In this document: piece by piece, positions 7,392 through 16,242 of the stretch
Position numbering within the stretch: position 1 is the first letter of the stretch
How the letters are laid out: every line of letters begins with the position of its first letter
Assembly: GCF_016767175.1 (NCBI RefSeq)
Contig: NZ_CP068564.1
Coordinates: 1,798,001-1,862,000, forward strand
Source: Keratinibaculum paraultunense
Lineage (GTDB): Bacteria; Bacillota; Clostridia; Tissierellales; Tepidimicrobiaceae
Reading direction: 5' to 3'
Length of the DNA: 64,000 bases
Translations under genes and position numbers: made by a program
Notes under the pieces: model-generated
What the model saw: the letters and a program-made list of their open reading frames with translations, nothing else
Databases searched by the model: none
Told to the model about the DNA's origin: nothing

Positions 7392-9860
7392 TTACTCATA
7401 TTTTATAATATTATCATATTTAAGCATTGCTAAGGATGATAAATTTACATTATGCACATCATCTTTAGTGCATACGCCATTTTGTGGATGAAGTATAGGA
7501 ACATTGGGGGCATCTTCTGATATTATCTTCTGAATTTCCATATACAACTCTTCTCTTCTTCTAGGATTTGTAGTTTTAGTTGCCCTATCTATAAGCTCTA
7601 CTACCTGTTCATTTTCATAAGCACTTAAGTTAGTTTGAGCATCTGGCATAAATAAAGGCTTTATAAAAGATGAAGGATCTAATGTGTCAGCATACCACCC
7701 AGAAAAATACATGTCAAAACCTTCTTGTAGCTCCTGAGCTCTTGTAAGTTTTTCATCTGAAACTTTTTTATACTTACATGTAATCCCTATAGCATTTAAA
7801 TCCTCTTCTACTAATTTCAACATAGGGTGAGGTTTTTCTCCTGAAAGAAATACTAAAGGTCTATTTAAGTTTATTCCTTCTTCCATTATAATTTTCTTTG
7901 CTTTCTGAGGATTATATTCATAACCTTTTACATGATCATCAGGTATTAATCCAGGAGGTATTATACATTTTGCTTCTACTGCAAGACCGCCAAATAGTTC
8001 ATCTATTATCCTTTGTTTATTTATAGCATGATTTATAGCTTGCCTAATTCTTGGTTGAACATAAGGTGAGCTTGTGTTTTTTAGTTTAAACCCAATATAA
8101 AATGTGGCTATTAAATCAACAAACTTTATATTGTCTCCTAATCCATAGGATTTGAGAGTTTCATAATCTTTTTTATTTTCTACTATATAAAAATCATATT
8201 CCCCATTTAAGAAGTTCTCTAATGCATCTTTATCTCCAACTTTAGCTTTAACTACATCACAATAGGGCTTACCTCCTATAAAATTAGGATTAGCTACTAA
8301 TCTATATTCATTCTCCTTATAGTTATCTATCATATAAGGACCGCATCCTATAAATTTCCCAGCTTTAAGCTCTTCTCGATCCATTACTGCACAACAACCA
8401 TGAGATAACAATAGAAGAAATCCATTAAAAGGATTTTCTAATCTAATGGATAATCTATATTCATCTAATACTTGAATACCTTTTACTTCATTGGTTTTCC
8501 CTGTCATAAAATCCTTTGCACCTTCAATATAATCTATAAACCAAGCGTTTGGTGAATTAAACTTAGGGGATAGTAACCTTTCTAAAGAATATTTTACATC
8601 ATAAGCTGTGACCTTTTTCCCATTATGGAATGTAGCATCATTTCTTAAATTAAATATCCAAGTCAGATTGTCATCCTTAACATACCATGTTTTCGCTATG
8701 GAAGGAAGTACATCCCCTGTATCACTAATTGTTAGTAAACCAGTATGAATATTGTTTAAAAATCTTAAGCTTTCCATAACATTACACATAGCTGGATCTA
8801 AAGTTTGAAGAGGAGATGAAATGGATAGCTTTATAGTAACTGACTCCTCTTTTTCCTCTATTTCTATTTCCTCCAATAGTTTATTAGTCATATCATCTAA
8901 AAGCATTGTTACTTGTTTTAATTCTTTTAAAGTTGCTTTTGTAAATTGAGTATTCATCATTGCACTTTCTACCATAGCCATAGCTTTATCTGAAGAATGT
9001 TCCATTTCGTCAGTAGAAAGCACTATGGATTCAAGGCTTTCAGTCTGAGCAGATATAGCTTGAGCTATTTCTTTCATTATTCCCAAAACATCATTTATTG
9101 CAGCTTCAATTTCTTCGAAGGCATTTTGCGATTCTTGAGCTACTGAAGAACCTTCTACTACTTTATTATTGCTATTTTCAATGGCTTCAATGGTAGTATT
9201 TACATTTTGCTGAATATTCTTTATTATATCCGATATATGATTGGCTGACTCAGCACTTCTATCTGCCAACTTTTTTACTTCCTCTGCTACAACAGCAAAA
9301 CCTCTTCCTGCATCTCCTGCCCTTGCTGCTTCTATATTGGCATTTAATGCTAATAGATTAGTTTGTTTTGCAATATCTCTTATTATGTTTAATATATCTT
9401 CTATTTGAATAATACTATCTTTTAAACTACTTATCTCATCCATTACCCCAGACATAGATTTATTAATTTCATTCATGGATTCAATGGTATTATATACTGA
9501 TTCACTGCCCTTTTTTACTACCTCTAAAGTTCCACTTGCTGTTTCATAAGAATCACTGGAACTAGCATGAAGTTCCTCTGCCATAGCAGAATAATGTCCT
9601 ATTTCATCCACTACTGCATATATATGTTTTACTTGTTCTTCTACTCTATTAGCAATAGCACCTATAGCATTTATTAAGTTTTCCGTTTGATTGGCAGAAT
9701 CTTCTATTTTAAGTTCTAAATTATGTAGTAGTTTTTTTTCATTTTGTCTAATTAAATTAAGTTGAGATTGATTTTTTAAATTTTCTTCTAAAGTATTCTG
9801 TTTTTCCACAACTTCATTTTCTTGTTGAACATTAGTTTTTTTCTTAAATAAATCAAACAT
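7392..9860 (-). CDS. Soluble chemoreceptor signalling domain fused to an OppA-type solute-binding domain
   Basis: 822 aa, start ATG 9860 with GGAGGGG upstream. Residues about 40-335 are a long coiled coil with the methyl-accepting chemotaxis hairpin tip, almost canonical ([20 protein letters not shown] at 162-181, then [20 protein letters not shown]). Residues about 345-820 are a family 5 extracellular solute-binding domain, like OppA/DppA ([55 protein letters not shown]). I see no signal peptide, no membrane helix and no HAMP domain, so both halves should be in the cytoplasm. Usual receptors place the sensor first and outside the cell; here it is second and inside. The cytoplasmic regulator SgrR shows that this binding fold can act as an internal sensor. 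Inferred role: internal peptide or metabolite sensor feeding CheA/CheW. The gene is monocistronic, with terminators on both sides. Confidence 0.88.
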
Positions 9861-10032: not shown

Positions 10033-10076
10033 AAAAAAGCAAATTAAAACTCACATGAGTTTTGATTTGCTTTTTT
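10033..10076 (-). terminator. Strong terminator after the activase gene
   Basis: AAAAAAGCAAATTAAAACTC (10033-10052) pairs with the arm ending at 10076 around a CATG centre. It is one stem interrupted by a mismatch, with A/T runs on both sides. It lies 5 bp past the activase stop and ends the B12/dehydratase cluster. Confidence 0.85.
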
Positions 10077-10081
10077 AATCT

Positions 10082-10837
10082 TTATATGTTTTTTGCTAGT
10101 AAAGCTCCTCCTATAGAGCCAGCATATCTACCAAGAGGACTTGTTTTTACTTCACTTCCAATTTCCTCAGAAAGTAACTGAATAAAAGATTCTAATTCAC
10201 ACAATCCTCCTGTTAAATATAGACTTCCTTTAATTCCATGCTTATTTAATAGACTTTTTATTCGTCCTATTATGGAATTCATAACCCCTCTAGCGATATC
10301 CTCTCTATCTGCTCCGCTTCCAATAAGACTTATCACTTCAGATTCTGCAAAAACCGTGCACATACTTGTAATCTTTATGTCTTTACCTCTTAAGACCATA
10401 TTTGCCATTTCATCAATAGTAACATTTAATGTATTTGCCATAAGCTCTATGAATCTTCCTGTCCCAGCAGCACATTTATCATTCATAGTAAAATTGGATA
10501 CATTCCCATCCTCAACAGTTATAATCTTTGTATCTTGTCCGCCAATATCTATTACCGTTAAATTTTCTCTTGCTAAATAATAAGCTCCTTTTCCATGACA
10601 GGTAATTTCAGTTATGGTTTTATGAGCGTATGGTACAGAAACTCGCCCATAACCTGTTGCTATTATTTTTGAATTTTCAATGTCTATTCCCTTTTTTACT
10701 AATTTTTCCCTTATTTTACTGGAAGTTTCTACACTATTCCAGCCTGTTGGCATTACAATATTTAATTTTAAATCATCATCTTCGAACACAGAAACTTTTG
10801 AAGCTGTTGAGCCTATGTCTATTCCTATATAATTCAT
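10082..10837 (-). CDS. HgdC/BadF-type ATP-dependent activase of a 2-hydroxyacyl-CoA dehydratase-like enzyme
   Basis: About 251 aa. It carries the ASKHA nucleotide-binding signatures GIDIGSTASK near the N-terminus, VIDIGGQDTK, and a C-terminal TGGLC. The two cysteines that in HgdC-type proteins hold one 4Fe-4S cluster between two subunits are present (NDKCAAGTGRF and SMCTVFAESE). Such proteins use ATP to push one low-potential electron into a partner enzyme. The partner is very likely the single-subunit dehydratase-like protein two genes upstream. The frame begins at 10846, but I prefer the ATG at 10837, which is spaced correctly behind AAAGGA. Last gene of the cluster. Confidence 0.92.
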   Translation of the reverse strand: MNYIGIDIGSTASKVSVFEDDDLKLNIVMPTGWNSVETSSKIREKLVKKGIDIENSKIIATGYGRVSVPYAHKTITEITCHGKGAYYLARENLTVIDIGGQDTKIITVEDGNVSNFTMNDKCAAGTGRFIELMANTLNVTIDEMANMVLRGKDIKITSMCTVFAESEVISLIGSGADREDIARGVMNSIIGRIKSLLNKHGIKGSLYLTGGLCELESFIQLLSEEIGSEVKTSPLGRYAGSIGGALLAKNI

Positions 10838-10849
10838 ACTTATCATCCT

Positions 10850-11071
10850 TTACTCTATAGTAAATAGTCCTTTTATTTCAACTGAATTTTTATCAATAAT
10901 ATCCTTTATAACTTCTTCATCTTTCTTATTATACATAATTGATATTCCACAACTTGTTGAGAGTTTTCTAGGTGTTGGTGAAATTACATATTTTATATTA
11001 TTTTGTTTTAACAATACTTCTAGTTTAAGTCCTTGACTATAATTGGGAAACAATATATAGTGCTTTGCCAA
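10850..11071 (-). CDS. DUF3343 small protein
   Basis: 73 aa. The motif PTPRKLSTSCG (residues 32-42, Cys41) is characteristic of DUF3343 proteins, some of which are described as putative Se/S-carrier-like. The start is TTG at 11071, one base after the upstream gene's stop codon. GGAG lies 9 bases before it inside that gene's end, so translation is coupled. DUF3343 genes often sit beside HgdB/HgdC-type genes, which suggests a role in maturing or supplying the iron-sulfur enzyme. That role is inference. Confidence 0.85.
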   Translation of the reverse strand: MAKHYILFPNYSQGLKLEVLLKQNNIKYVISPTPRKLSTSCGISIMYNKKDEEVIKDIIDKNSVEIKGLFTIE

Positions 11072-12331
11072 CTAGATCATCTCCAAGAAAGCCTCAACTC
11101 TAGTTTTGATTTGTCCTGTATCTTCTTCAGAATAATCTGTTTCTATTTTCAATAAAGGTATATCCTCTTCCTTTAGAGCCTTTGCAATTTTTTCATATTC
11201 TATTGCATAAGTATGACAGAAAGATAGATTATAGTATATTACTCCATCTACATTGTACTCATCAACATATTTAATTATATCTTCTACCCTACCTTCATTT
11301 GGGGTAAAGCAAGCACAATTTATATCCATATATCTTTCAGCCATATTTCTTACAAGTTCATCAATTGTATCCCCTTCAGTAGATACTTCATTCTCAAAAT
11401 ATCTGGTTCCTGTACATGTTTCTTCCACAACTATTTCAGCATTTAAACCTTCAACTATTGAATGAAGTTTCCAATTTGGAAGAGCCATAGGGGTACCTGT
11501 TACCATTATTCTCTTTTTGCCATTAGGCTTTAATTCCTTTACTCTCTCTTCTAACTCATCACAAAGTTCTTCTGTTTTTTCAATAAATCTTTCTGGATCA
11601 TCAGAAAAGGCAACTTGACTTACTAACAATGCATCTAAACCACTAATTGGAGAAGGAGTATTTTTCCTTAAATCATACATCCTTTTTAATGCTTTTCTTT
11701 TTCCATTACATATATCAATACCTTTTTTTAAACTTTCTATTGTTACTTTATTTCCTGTTAACTCTTCCATTCTATTTATAAATATCCTTATTTCATCTTC
11801 CCATTGTTTGATATTTTTCTCCCTCTTCATTTGAGGAAGTTCCATTACATGAACTGGTATATATTCATCCATAATCTCCCAAGCCTTTTTCTTAGCATCA
11901 CAAGTAGTTTCTCCTACAATCATATCGCATGATTGAAAATATGGACAAGTAAGACCTATTTTAGCTCCTGTAAAAGCCTTAACTAAAGGGCATATATTTC
12001 TGGGCAAAATCTTTTCTCCATCTTCAATCCAAAACTGGCTTCCTGAGCAAAGCCCTACACCTATAGCTTTTGTCGCAAGTATTACCTCATCAGGTACAAA
12101 TACACAGAAGGTTCCTACTACTTTGCCACCTTCTTTTTTATATTTTTCTAGTTCCATTATTCTAGCACCATGTATTTCAGCAACTACATAATTAAAATAA
12201 TTCATTGCTTCTGGTCTATTTTCTTGAGTTAAATAAATATCACCAAATTGCTCTGGTAAAGCTTCACATAAAATATCATGCTTCTCAATATCCATATTTA
12301 AATCTTGCCACATCTTTTTATAATCGCCCAC
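11072..12331 (-). CDS. Single-subunit 2-hydroxyacyl-CoA dehydratase-family protein (DCCP-like iron-sulfur protein)
   Basis: 419 aa of the HgdB/BcrC/BadD family. Cysteines well placed for clusters: C76 (GTFCVFVP), C95 (GLCSGSQFW), C114 (NICPL), C129 and C135 (CPYFQSCD), C144, then C306, C339, C341 and C372. True dehydratases need two different subunits. Here only one is encoded, beside its own activase, which is the arrangement of the double-cubane cluster proteins (DCCP plus reductase) described from Carboxydothermus. Those reduce small molecules at very low potential but have no settled physiological substrate. Start GTG 12331, with GGGGGA 7 bases upstream. The gap from the B12-binding gene is 146 bp, so cotranscription is possible but not certain. 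Confidence 0.85.
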   Translation of the reverse strand: MGDYKKMWQDLNMDIEKHDILCEALPEQFGDIYLTQENRPEAMNYFNYVVAEIHGARIMELEKYKKEGGKVVGTFCVFVPDEVILATKAIGVGLCSGSQFWIEDGEKILPRNICPLVKAFTGAKIGLTCPYFQSCDMIVGETTCDAKKKAWEIMDEYIPVHVMELPQMKREKNIKQWEDEIRIFINRMEELTGNKVTIESLKKGIDICNGKRKALKRMYDLRKNTPSPISGLDALLVSQVAFSDDPERFIEKTEELCDELEERVKELKPNGKKRIMVTGTPMALPNWKLHSIVEGLNAEIVVEETCTGTRYFENEVSTEGDTIDELVRNMAERYMDINCACFTPNEGRVEDIIKYVDEYNVDGVIYYNLSFCHTYAIEYEKIAKALKEEDIPLLKIETDYSEEDTGQIKTRVEAFLEMI

Positions 12332-12459
12332 AAAAAATTCCCCCTTATATATTTTATTCAGCCTAGATTATAACATTTGAAGTATGAAAAATATATGATT
12401 ATTGATATTTATGATATTAATTATCAATTTATTGATTTTTTTTATAGGCAATAATAATA

Positions 12460-12486
12460 GGACAGTAAAAACCATCCTTACTGTCC
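12460..12486 (-). terminator. GGACAG palindrome overlapping the stop of the B12-binding gene
   Basis: GGACAGTAA (12460-12468) pairs with TTACTGTCC (12478-12486). The right arm overlaps the last codons and the TAA of the gene ending at 12478, so the palindrome supplies the end of the reading frame. Related in sequence to the GGGACA...TGTCCC hairpins at 28.0, 28.5, 38.1 and 42.6 kb. It may reduce transcription into the dehydratase-like gene. Confidence 0.7.
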
Positions 12487-14382
12487 CACACGATATTTTT
12501 GGTTAAATATATATTCTACTTCTTCTAAGTTACTTCTAGCATAATCCACTACTTTTTCAGCACTCATAATATTGCCTTCCTCATCTACAACTTTTACACT
12601 ACCTCTTACAGGTCTTGTTTTTAATCCTTTAGCATATTTAAATTCATCTACTTCTCCCCATAGATAAGGTACAGGTAAAAAACCTGCTGCAAATATTTTA
12701 TAAAATCCTTCTGCTGAATAAGGATTATCTACATATTTTTCTATTCCATCAATAATAATCTTTGCAGAGCCTATAAGTTCTATCATTCTTTCATAAACAT
12801 CTTCATTTCTACTCATATCTTCTATTTTGCCTTCTTTTCTCAATCGTCTATACTCTTGTAGTGAATATTGAGTAATTTTTATACTTTCATTTATAATATC
12901 TGGCGTTGCAAGATGGGAGGCTTCTGAATAACTAACCACATGTATAATTGGAGGACTAGTTTCATCATGAGGATCTATATCATCCATAAGGGCTGTAACT
13001 GCTGCTAATTGAATTTTAGCTTCTTCTAAATCAGGTTTGAAATAGTCTAAACCTGCTCTAGGCTGTAATATAACCTTGAAATTAGAATCCTCTAAACTTT
13101 TAACTAAAGTAAGCATAGCTCTAGATTTAGCTAAATCTTGAATCCCCCATGTTAATCTAGGTGTATTTAACATATTTTGTAATATAAGAGTTTTAATTCC
13201 CAATTTTTTTGCAAGTTTTGAAGCTAAATAAGCTGATATTATATAAGTTACATCATCTGCTCCTCTAAATGCAAAGTGATGGGATACATTAGGCTCATAA
13301 GGTTTATTTGTTGTTGCAACATATTTTAAAGTTTCAATATGTTGCTGCAAATTGGTGTATAAATCATAAGGACCTCTCCCATCTAGCTTGTTAAACCACC
13401 ATAAAGATAAAGCATGCCAACATATATTTATGGTTTCTTCATATATTCTTGCCAATTCTGGTATATTTTTTGTTCCAGCATAGGTTCTCAATAATAAAGG
13501 TCTAGAAACTTCCCAAATCATTCTATATTCTTCAGGAGAATTTATAGGTACTCCTCCACCATTAGGTTTATCATCCCAATCTTCCCCAAAATTTGATTGA
13601 GTTAATTGAGAAGTTCCAATGGATAAAATGTCTAAATATCCAGTTTCAGCTAAATATTTTGCCCAAGACATAAATAGCTTTATAGCTTCTTCTCTAGTCA
13701 TGGAAGATGAATAAGGACCTGCATGAGCACGCATCAATGGTACAAAAGGACCTGATTTTTGTGCTACAAGCCTTTTTTCAACTGTATCATTAAAAGTCCC
13801 ATATTCTGGATAAGTAGCTCTATCTACTGGTTTAAAAAAATCATAGTTCTGGGACTTGATTATATCCTCACCAAATTCCATTCTAATATCATCATATCTA
13901 CTTCCTTCTAATATATGTTTAGGAATTCTTTCTTCAGGAACTCCCATTTTGTGTAAAGTTTCTCTTATAGATTCTCCACCTTTAAATGTTTTTACAAATC
14001 CTTTATGCACCTCATTTATTACTTCACATGCACGAGGTAATCCTGCAAAAAATACAGATTTAATAGGACCGCCTTGGTAATCTAACATACTTTCGCTTCT
14101 TAATCTATTCATAAGATATCCTACCAGGTCTACTGCATCATCTTCATCTAATCTATAACTTATTCCAATGTGGGTAATTTTATTTTCAATAATCCAATTT
14201 AAAATTCGCTGTTGATTTGGTTCGTGATTTATATTATCCATAACTTTTGAAATAACTTCATCTGCAATTATTACCTTATAACCACAATCTTTTAATAATT
14301 CAGCAGCTGTAGTCAATCCCAGTGTATGAGCATCAAATGAAGGTTTTATAAAAGCATATACATCTCTATCTACTAAATACAT
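12478..14382 (-). CDS. B12-binding, glutamate-mutase-like protein of unknown substrate
   Basis: 634 aa. Residues 17-22 are DAHTLG, matching the DxHxxG motif by which base-off mutases bind the cobalt of B12. The surrounding 130 residues look like the Rossmann-type B12 domain (ITHIGISY, VFFAGLP). The rest resembles the TIM-barrel catalytic subunits of carbon-skeleton mutases such as glutamate mutase epsilon, with long conserved-looking blocks (HHFAFRGADDVTYI near 355, QPRAGLDYF, VSYSEASHLATPDI). It is not a close match to any mutase I can name, so the substrate is unknown. Start ATG 14382, with a GGAGGGG site. It is the first gene of a same-strand cluster with the DCCP-like protein, DUF3343 and activase. 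Confidence 0.75.
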   Translation of the reverse strand: MYLVDRDVYAFIKPSFDAHTLGLTTAAELLKDCGYKVIIADEVISKVMDNINHEPNQQRILNWIIENKITHIGISYRLDEDDAVDLVGYLMNRLRSESMLDYQGGPIKSVFFAGLPRACEVINEVHKGFVKTFKGGESIRETLHKMGVPEERIPKHILEGSRYDDIRMEFGEDIIKSQNYDFFKPVDRATYPEYGTFNDTVEKRLVAQKSGPFVPLMRAHAGPYSSSMTREEAIKLFMSWAKYLAETGYLDILSIGTSQLTQSNFGEDWDDKPNGGGVPINSPEEYRMIWEVSRPLLLRTYAGTKNIPELARIYEETINICWHALSLWWFNKLDGRGPYDLYTNLQQHIETLKYVATTNKPYEPNVSHHFAFRGADDVTYIISAYLASKLAKKLGIKTLILQNMLNTPRLTWGIQDLAKSRAMLTLVKSLEDSNFKVILQPRAGLDYFKPDLEEAKIQLAAVTALMDDIDPHDETSPPIIHVVSYSEASHLATPDIINESIKITQYSLQEYRRLRKEGKIEDMSRNEDVYERMIELIGSAKIIIDGIEKYVDNPYSAEGFYKIFAAGFLPVPYLWGEVDEFKYAKGLKTRPVRGSVKVVDEEGNIMSAEKVVDYARSNLEEVEYIFNQKYRVGQ

Positions 14383-14541
14383 ATCTTATCCCCTCCATGG
14401 AACAGTATATTTTTCTGTATGTGTAAATATATGAGTAAATAAGGGACTCAAAAATAGTCCCTTAGTTAATGATACCCAATACATATATTTTAAAACAAAA
14501 TTATATAGATTATCAATAGGGAAATTATCCTTACTAGACAT

Positions 14542-14715
14542 GAAAAAGGAGAACTCTCTAAAGAGCATATAGATACTCATAATTCCGACATAGTCGGTAG
14601 ATATCTAGTTAAGATCGGCACCAAAGAATATGATACCGTAAGACAGATCTACTTCAACAGCCACAATGAACTAGTAGAGAATTATATAAATACCGAAGGT
14701 GTAGACGAAAAATAA
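14542..14715 (+). pseudogene. Decayed partial copy of the sigma factor C-terminal region
   Basis: Bases 14542-14700 match 15925-16083 at 154 of 159 positions by my alignment, in the same orientation. The frame is kept (GELSKEHIDTHNSDIVGRYL and onward), then leaves homology at 14701 and stops at 14715. Neither the sigma domain nor an upstream start remains. This is a remnant of a second, nearly identical gene or a recent partial duplication. The rest of 14383-14958 holds no gene I can support; the minus-strand frame across 14386-14580 runs antisense to this remnant. Confidence 0.85.
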
Positions 14716-14958
14716 TGGGATAGTGAGAAACATCCCACTACCCCAGAAATAACTTAGTAAGTTAGTGCCGGGGCGGATATTTCATATTTATCCCTTCCTT
14801 CTATACAATCTTCACTTTACTATATTTATTCGTATAATAATATATTCAATACGTGAATACAAATGTATGCTATAATATTTTAAAAATGAACCTTTCATTG
14901 TTTTTTTACGTCTATAAGGGTGAAGTCGTATTTAATGTAAAGAATGGGAGGTGATGAT

Positions 14959-16242
14959 ATGGATAATGATGAATTTGTTTTGCTGCTAAATAACTGCAAA
15001 AATTCCATCGAACGCTTTATTTATTATAAAATGCCAAATAAATATGATGCTGAGGATATATTACAAGAGGTATTAATTACAGGATATAAATCCTTCGATA
15101 AATTAAAATCTAAGGAAAAATTTAAATCCTGGATGCTATCCATTGCTGCTAATAAATGTAATGATTATTATAGAAACAGGCTTAAAGTACTAGAAATACC
15201 AATAGATAATATATACTATTATGAAAAATCCTATAGCAGAGCTGGAATAACAGTCAAAGACGCAGTAGATGATACCCTAGAAAACCTTCGTGATCAAGAT
15301 AAAAAGATATTGACTATGCATTATATCAAAGGTATGGACCAAAAAAGCATTGCTTCCATGCTCAATATTCCAGTTGGTACAGTAAAGAGTAGACTATATA
15401 CGGCTAGGCAAAACTTCAAAGAAATATATCCATATCCACCGGATATGAAAGGGGAATGTATAATGAAAAACTCAAGTTTTCCACAGATTATGCCAGAGAT
15501 TACTATAACTAAATCTAATTTGGAAGAATTTGAAATCAAATGTGAACAGGATATAGGATGGTTTATCATCCCTCGTCTAGGTGAAGAGTCAAGCTTTGCT
15601 ACCTATGATTTCGATAACTATCCTACAATGAAAAAATCTAGTGAAACTACTGTAAAGGTCATAGGAAAAGCTATCATCCATGGAGTAGAATGTGTAGAAA
15701 TAGAAGAACAAGAAGTTGGAATAGATGGAAGCACATATGGATTTACAATGTTTGAACGCCTTACAGATACACATTTACAAACAATAGCAGCCATATATTA
15801 TTCTAATGGAATTAAGAAAATATCCACCTTTTTAGATGACGATTTCCTCAGTTTTTGGGGATTTGGAGAAAACAATTGTGGTGAAGAACTACTTCAGAAA
15901 AGAAAAGGTACTATTGAATGTAATGAAAAGGGAGAACTCTCCAAAGAGCATATAGATACTCATAATTCCGACATAGTCGGTAGATATCTAGTTAAGATCG
16001 GCAACAAAGAATATGATACCATAAGACAAATCTACTTCAACAGCCACAATGAACTAGTAGAGAATTATATAAATACCGAAGGTAAGGTAGTGCTTTTCAG
16101 GCGATTTAATAGATTTGATTGGCGATATAAAAAAGGCTACGACCAGCTTTGGACGGATATGTTTCCATATTCCGATAGAATTATTCTAAATGGGGATATA
16201 TATGTTCACTGGTACAATTGTTTGCCAATATATGTAATATAG
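14959..16242 (+). CDS. ECF-like sigma-70 factor with a long unknown C-terminal region
   Basis: 427 aa from the ATG at 14959. The frame opens 15 bases earlier, but GGGAGGTGAT sits right before this ATG. Residues about 1-155 hold sigma region 2 (YDAEDILQEVLITGYKSFDK) and region 4 (DQDKKILTMHYIKGMDQKSI, then a helix-turn-helix ending GTVKSRLYTARQNFK). The remaining 270 residues are not a usual sigma region. They are rich in beta strands and aromatic residues with no membrane helix, and look like a soluble sensing or regulatory domain. No anti-sigma gene is adjacent, so the tail may replace it. That is inference. Bases 15925-16083 are duplicated at 14542-14700. A terminator follows. Confidence 0.85.
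   Translation: MDNDEFVLLLNNCKNSIERFIYYKMPNKYDAEDILQEVLITGYKSFDKLKSKEKFKSWMLSIAANKCNDYYRNRLKVLEIPIDNIYYYEKSYSRAGITVKDAVDDTLENLRDQDKKILTMHYIKGMDQKSIASMLNIPVGTVKSRLYTARQNFKEIYPYPPDMKGECIMKNSSFPQIMPEITITKSNLEEFEIKCEQDIGWFIIPRLGEESSFATYDFDNYPTMKKSSETTVKVIGKAIIHGVECVEIEEQEVGIDGSTYGFTMFERLTDTHLQTIAAIYYSNGIKKISTFLDDDFLSFWGFGENNCGEELLQKRKGTIECNEKGELSKEHIDTHNSDIVGRYLVKIGNKEYDTIRQIYFNSHNELVENYINTEGKVVLFRRFNRFDWRYKKGYDQLWTDMFPYSDRIILNGDIYVHWYNCLPIYVI

Follow-up and report, generated by a model that had tools for sequence, protein, structure and literature searches.

Four consecutive genes in a 64,000-nucleotide stretch of the Keratinibaculum paraultunense genome (the window; G000:C1:1798001-1862000, from a single-contig genome of 2.3 Mb) raise the question of whether a predicted adenosylcobalamin (AdoCbl)-dependent mutase forms one pathway with the iron-sulfur proteins encoded next to it, or has its partner elsewhere. 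It is proposed here, with a probability that we put at about two in three, that these are two independent neighbouring units and that the mutase, encoded by what we call the B12 gene, works with an orphan opine-type dehydrogenase, where it would replace in trans a mutase of a different subfamily (subfamily II replaced by subfamily I). All four reading frames are open, lie on the minus strand and had been correctly named in the initial annotation. The features, in window coordinates, are as follows:

12478-14382, minus strand: B12 gene, 634-aa single-chain AdoCbl mutase-like protein (open reading frame, alignment and model); structure models place an N-terminal B12 domain at residues ~1-150 and a GlmE-like barrel at ~193-614
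12457-12489, minus strand: hairpin of terminator type whose U tract is weak and which overlaps the 3' end of the B12 gene (terminator scan; RNA fold z -3.24)
11072-12331, minus strand: double-cubane-cluster protein (DCCP), long form, 419 aa, GTG start (NF040772)
10850-11071, minus strand: DUF3343/Se_S_carrier protein (PF11823), 73 aa, TTG start, with a conserved Cys in TSCGIS
10082-10837 or 10082-10846 (alternative starts), minus strand: acyl-CoA-dehydratase-type activase (TIGR00241)
10033-10077, minus strand: strong terminator-like hairpin directly 3' of the activase gene (minus-strand fold z -7.5); it appears under the plus strand in the terminator scan, and its stem is symmetric

The B12 gene and the iron-sulfur unit

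Neighbourhoods were counted in the best 80 of 476 relatives of the B12 protein; the flanks fetched extended to 8 kb at most, and many of the contigs were short. DCCP, DUF3343 and activase genes were found near the B12 gene in only one of these 80 loci, that of the sister species of the genus, where the order is the same and the 1.1 kb from the B12 gene to DCCP contains two genes, one for a PCC-domain protein and one for a DUF6429 protein. No DCCP gene was seen near a close B12 orthologue in the stretches read of six other genomes of the same bacterial family, and within that family the nearness was seen in the two genus members alone. DCCP scores over its cut-off in 126 of 249 genomes of the order, being present in nine of the 13 genomes with a subfamily I gene and in 117 of the 236 others (p = 0.25), so that the two do not co-occur beyond chance. 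Conservation of the neighbourhood had been set beforehand as the test of a link; it held for the two genus members and largely failed beyond them.

It had been suggested that the two chemistries are joined in one pathway, or that the activase and DCCP reductively reactivate the B12 enzyme. The genes do share a strand, are 146 bp apart in the window (12332-12477) and keep their order in the other genus member, but the single locus in 80, the two genes that intervene in the sister species and the chance-level co-occurrence led us to set both versions aside as highly improbable, the reactivation proposal lacking support from neighbourhood and co-occurrence alike. The palindrome noted earlier at 12460-12486 also stands against a joint pathway, as it was confirmed to be a terminator-like hairpin, running from 12489 to 12457 and overlapping the stop codon of the B12 gene. 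A terminator between the B12 gene and DCCP is thus suggested, but its U tract is weak and the hairpin is suggestive only. This same weakness, together with the nearness kept in both genus members, would suit a young, genus-specific co-transcription or co-regulation of the B12 gene and the DCCP unit with no pathway in common. However, two unrelated genes and 1.1 kb intervene in the sister species, two genomes are too few to carry such a case, and we give this idea scarcely more credit than the joint pathway. Most likely the B12 gene and the iron-sulfur unit are neighbours by accident.

The iron-sulfur genes themselves form a recognizable unit. The DCCP protein scores 505.9 bits against NF040772 (cut-off 350) and, at 511.7 bits, matches the protein of PDB 6eno almost end to end, with many Cys aligned. 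The DUF3343 protein reaches 76.9 bits against PF11823 (cut-off 25), and the activase 246.7 bits against TIGR00241 (cut-off 125.4). As had been described, the first base of the DUF3343 gene (11071) follows immediately on the DCCP stop, and the activase gene is close behind, with a gap of 12 bp if the inner ATG at 10837 is used, 10846 being the other start. For comparison, 17 DCCP loci were chosen, namely that of the sister species (L030) and 16 hand-picked long-frame DCCP genes over the cut-off, which are not a random sample. DUF3343 lies within ~70 bp after DCCP in all 17, a small activase is close to DCCP in 14 and the Cys before Gly in the [SC]CG motif of DUF3343 is present in all 17, which bears out the tight three-gene unit; a B12 gene is near only in L030. 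Classification of this DCCP as a two-subunit (R)-2-hydroxyacyl-CoA dehydratase was tried and rejected, the HadC-type profile NF052456 giving 129.3 bits against a cut-off of 700.

In the DCCP family, ATP-driven electron transfer runs from the activase to the double-cubane cluster. The DCCP-DUF3343-activase unit is most likely a separate and common ATP-driven low-potential reductase unit, and would act as such in this genome. The DUF3343/Se_S_carrier family has been proposed, in the passage of the source that concerns it, to carry sulfur or selenium (PMC5322559). Given its nearness in all 17 loci and its conserved Cys, DUF3343 may deliver sulfur for the DCCP cluster. The genome also has a second DCCP, of the short form (L183:8029-9186, equal to G000:C1:1468029-1469186; 529.3 bits, over the cut-off), with neither activase nor DUF3343 among its listed neighbours.

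Predicted fold and reaction of the B12 protein

The DxHxxG motif that had marked the 634-aa product as a cobalamin protein reads DAHTLG at residues 17-22. In an alignment of 46 sequences, the window protein included, H19 and G22 are invariant and D17 is conserved in at least 90%. The Pfam B12-binding match falls below its cut-off (16.9 against 32.1 bits, E 0.0059), the NCBIfam profiles contain no family for the protein, and phmmer and profile searches of the PDB returned chance-level rows only. PF06368 did not match it at E values up to 10, nor was any match found in the genome at E 0.001; subfamily II relatives match this profile weakly.

Structure prediction was more informative. A full-length AlphaFold2 model built from the 46 sequences reached a pLDDT of 89.4 and a pTM of 0.89, and a Foldseek search with the model gave E 1.9e-12. 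The barrel has GlmE as its top PDB match (1cb7_B; VIA Z 27.3, rmsd 3.3, 375 aligned), ahead of lysine 5,6-aminomutase (Z 26.1), ornithine 4,5-aminomutase (24.4) and methylmalonyl-CoA mutase (19.4), in agreement with the glutamate-mutase-like barrel that had been proposed. Residues 1-170 were modelled separately (pLDDT 86.6), and the B12 part alone resembles the B12 domains of AdoCbl mutases, with Z 13.5 to 2-hydroxyisobutyryl-CoA mutase, 12.7 to IcmF and 10.3 to 1cb7_A; together with the conserved motif, this predicted fold supports the assignment as a putative cobalamin protein.

In AdoCbl mutases a 5'-deoxyadenosyl radical is generated, and a group migrates within a small substrate molecule. 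The window protein is probably a single-chain AdoCbl-dependent carbon-skeleton mutase of this kind, in which the N-terminal B12 domain would bind AdoCbl with H19 beneath the cobalt. When a substrate, small and probably amino-acid-like, binds in the GlmE-like barrel, the Co-C bond would be cleaved, and the 5'-deoxyadenosyl radical would bring about a 1,2-rearrangement of that substrate.

An opine-type dehydrogenase as the proposed partner

Relatives of the B12 protein, which occur in records from many phyla, are commonly found beside a dehydrogenase. When neighbouring genes were grouped by single-linkage BLAST, with some members checked by Pfam, a single octopine-dehydrogenase cluster had a member in 61 of the 80 loci, and 59 such genes lay within 1.5 kb of the B12 gene. 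A B12 gene was called in 78 loci (L141 and L144, where it was not, were left out of the distance counts), and in 54 of them the dehydrogenase is no more than 100 bp away; 53 of these 54 close dehydrogenases are on the same strand, and 50 are upstream and four downstream. The cluster members that were tested are Octopine_DH by Pfam. Three B12 subfamilies can be distinguished, I (that of the window), II (~550 aa) and III (~616-629 aa), which form separate and strongly supported clades in the tree, with a long-branch warning for L174. Subfamilies II and III also adjoin such dehydrogenases (Pfam was tested for one subfamily III partner). The opine-dehydrogenase partner has a length of 554-563 aa at L125, L127, L136 and L140; the one of these four run against Pfam, that of L127, carries a PTS EIIA type 2 domain at its N terminus, fused to the dehydrogenase.

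The pairing itself has been published. In the passages that treat this family, a 2009 survey (Zhang et al.) predicted a B12 family 'always adjacent' to octopine/nopaline dehydrogenase, gave it no function and reported ATP-grasp (D-Ala-D-Ala ligase type) or asparagine synthase genes as neighbours (PMC2667541); the Halothermothrix orenii genome report, where it mentions an octopine dehydrogenase-B12 protein operon, leaves its role unassigned (PMC2626281). Among our relatives, ATP-grasp genes lie within 1.5 kb of 13 subfamily I genes and asparagine synthase genes of six (Pfam checked on three). Of eight families inspected, four (f1, f2, f16 and f18) have vor-type genes next to the subfamily II pair and four (f7, f12, f13 and f15) do not. 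The gene names vor, ptb, buk, cca, glmM and fab were given by eye from the sequences. No substrate was deduced from the vor-type, ATP-grasp or asparagine synthase neighbours.

No PF02317 gene adjoins the B12 gene of the window. The genome holds two Octopine_DH genes, one beside a subfamily III gene and one alone. The latter, the orphan (371 aa, G000:C1:1879318-1880430; PF02317 158 bits), is 67 kb from the B12 gene and adjoins vorCBA-like genes; its closest solved protein is N-(1-D-carboxylethyl)-L-norvaline dehydrogenase (CENDH, 1bg6; E 1.2e-84). At the vor-like locus of sister genomes, the dehydrogenase gene and a subfamily II B12 gene overlap by 1-4 bp.

The distribution of these genes suggests what happened to the missing mutase. 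In the bacterial family of the window, the dehydrogenase (at least 72% identity) is present in 16 of 20 genomes, precisely those that carry subfamily I or II; the remaining four lack the dehydrogenase and both subfamilies. Seven of the 16 carry I without II, eight II without I and one both. All seven with I alone have kept the dehydrogenase at the vor-like locus, and no intact subfamily II gene follows it there; the contig of G012 ends 818 bases beyond the dehydrogenase. Across the 249 genomes of the order, 35 have the dehydrogenase, and subfamily I is found in nine of the 10 that are without II as against two of the 25 that have it (p = 7.3e-6). These order-wide sets were compiled by hand, with thresholds of >500 bits for the dehydrogenase and E <1e-40 for subfamily II and leaving out G032-G034.

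The orphan dehydrogenases nest within the clade of those paired with subfamily II, and at least three changes of label are required by branches with good support, so that subfamily II was probably lost more than once. In G016 (L180), a genome carrying subfamily I, a broken subfamily II remnant lies directly after the dehydrogenase; its pieces correspond, in unchanged order, to residues 202-226 and 488-544 of the protein of G017, and it keeps the last residues of the gene. The subfamily I genes of the family form one clade (97/93), which is joined (87/87) to a gene of G175, a genome with both complete pairs. The simplest history starts from two full pairs, one of which then lost its dehydrogenase and the other its mutase. 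The orphan would accordingly be what is left of a pair whose ~550-aa subfamily II mutase has vanished, its place being taken in trans by the subfamily I protein of the window.

Several points weigh against this reading. On the genomic side, the Fisher tests ignore shared ancestry, the three forced label changes also fit a single loss with later regain, and three dehydrogenases paired with subfamily II (L172-L174) fall outside the main clade. A subfamily II remnant after the orphan dehydrogenase was absent from eight of the nine stretches tested, and because of this and the possible regain the reading is held slightly less firmly. In other genomes, the dehydrogenase found with subfamily I shares only ~40% identity with the orphan, so that a mixed pair must be assumed, and in G227 the dehydrogenase is present and a B12 protein was not found. 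On the protein side, profile kinship with GlmE is weak (hhalign probability 29% and 0.3%), and the substrate residues of GlmE are not visibly conserved. Of these residues, described in the relevant part of the source as an arginine claw R66/R100/R149 and E171 (PMC10947579), R100 corresponds to a Gln invariant in the family and R66 to the His of an RxH motif, and R149 and E171 do not align reliably; a substrate other than glutamate seems likely from the sequences. The literature searched, which left out most subscription journals, yielded no biochemistry or function for the B12 family.

Some of these points would suit a different explanation, in which the function of the B12 mutase is unrelated to the orphan dehydrogenase, the latter is kept for a job of its own and losses of subfamily II merely coincide with lineage. 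The 67 kb between the genes, the other clade of the usual subfamily I partner and the two dehydrogenases that G227 keeps would then need no special account. However, such independence fits poorly with the presence of subfamily I in nine of ten dehydrogenase-bearing genomes that are without II, with a label that changes several times on the tree, with a decayed II gene in a genome carrying I and with the association of all three B12 subfamilies with dehydrogenases of the same family, and we think it unlikely.

We therefore prefer a partnership between the window's mutase and the orphan dehydrogenase. Enzymes of the opine dehydrogenase family join or split a 2-oxo acid and an amino acid with NAD(H). 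The NAD-dependent enzyme encoded by the orphan gene might thus make or consume the substrate of the mutase, and the pairing in relatives, together with the replacement pattern, suggests that the two act in sequence. A still broader proposal, tentative and in our view rather doubtful in its full extent, is that opine-dehydrogenase chemistry and AdoCbl rearrangement make up a widespread two-enzyme pathway by which a rearranged non-standard amino acid or opine is made or broken down, that subfamilies I and II carry out one and the same step in it and are interchangeable, and that the window's lineage has a hybrid version, in which the dehydrogenase of subfamily II and the mutase of subfamily I are encoded far apart.

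Other genes and comparison with known systems

Some further features of the region were noted. Between the B12 gene and an ECF-sigma-like gene (14944-16242) lies a fragment (14539-14700) that is 94% identical to that gene over 54 aa, and a similar ECF-sigma-like fragment is found directly upstream of the B12 gene of the sister species. At 7392-9860, on the minus strand, an 822-aa protein combines a chemoreceptor signalling domain (PF00015) with a C-terminal family 5 solute-binding protein (PF00496). By eye it has no obvious signal peptide, and it is possibly a cytosolic chemoreceptor that uses a peptide- or nickel-type binding protein as its sensor; of 120 genomes of the order, 24 have a match at E 1e-60, which in one case covers the binding-protein half only. 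Outside the window, the same genome encodes a 1091-aa protein (L046:1598-4873) whose start looks Cas9-like by eye.

Removing the tempting operon link between B12 and DCCP leaves an indication of the likely partner of a widespread B12 family. Compared with the DCCP of PDB 6eno and its activase, the window's unit shows the same near full-length match, a score over the NF040772 cut-off and adjoining activase and DUF3343 genes; there is no clear difference, and judging by sequence this DCCP looks like an ordinary member of its family.

The B12 protein is predicted to share with GlmE/GlmS both the barrel fold and the fold of the B12 domain. It differs from that system in being one fused chain with the B12 domain first, and in having no PF06368 match. 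With IcmF and 2-hydroxyisobutyryl-CoA mutase the similarity is in the predicted B12-domain fold, and IcmF likewise carries a B12 domain and a barrel in one chain. The barrel, however, is nearer to that of GlmE than to those of the CoA mutases, and only ~45 residues separate it from the B12 domain, which leaves no room there for the G-protein domain of IcmF.

The closest comparison is with the family of Zhang et al. (2009), as far as the published description extends. A distant N-terminal B12 domain with the DxHxxG motif is shared, the relatives adjoin octopine/nopaline dehydrogenase, and the ATP-grasp and asparagine synthase genes near some subfamily I genes agree as well; the two are taken to be the same family on the basis of that description rather than of its sequences. 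The window departs from the 'always adjacent' of the survey, in that its B12 gene and the orthologues in the same bacterial family have no adjoining PF02317 gene and the dehydrogenase is encoded elsewhere, coming from the pair of another subfamily. What is new thus seems to be this variant arrangement, a pair split and recombined, and not the families themselves, whose pairing had been published unexplained. In the apparent exchange of partners, nature itself would provide evidence that subfamilies I and II are functionally equivalent.

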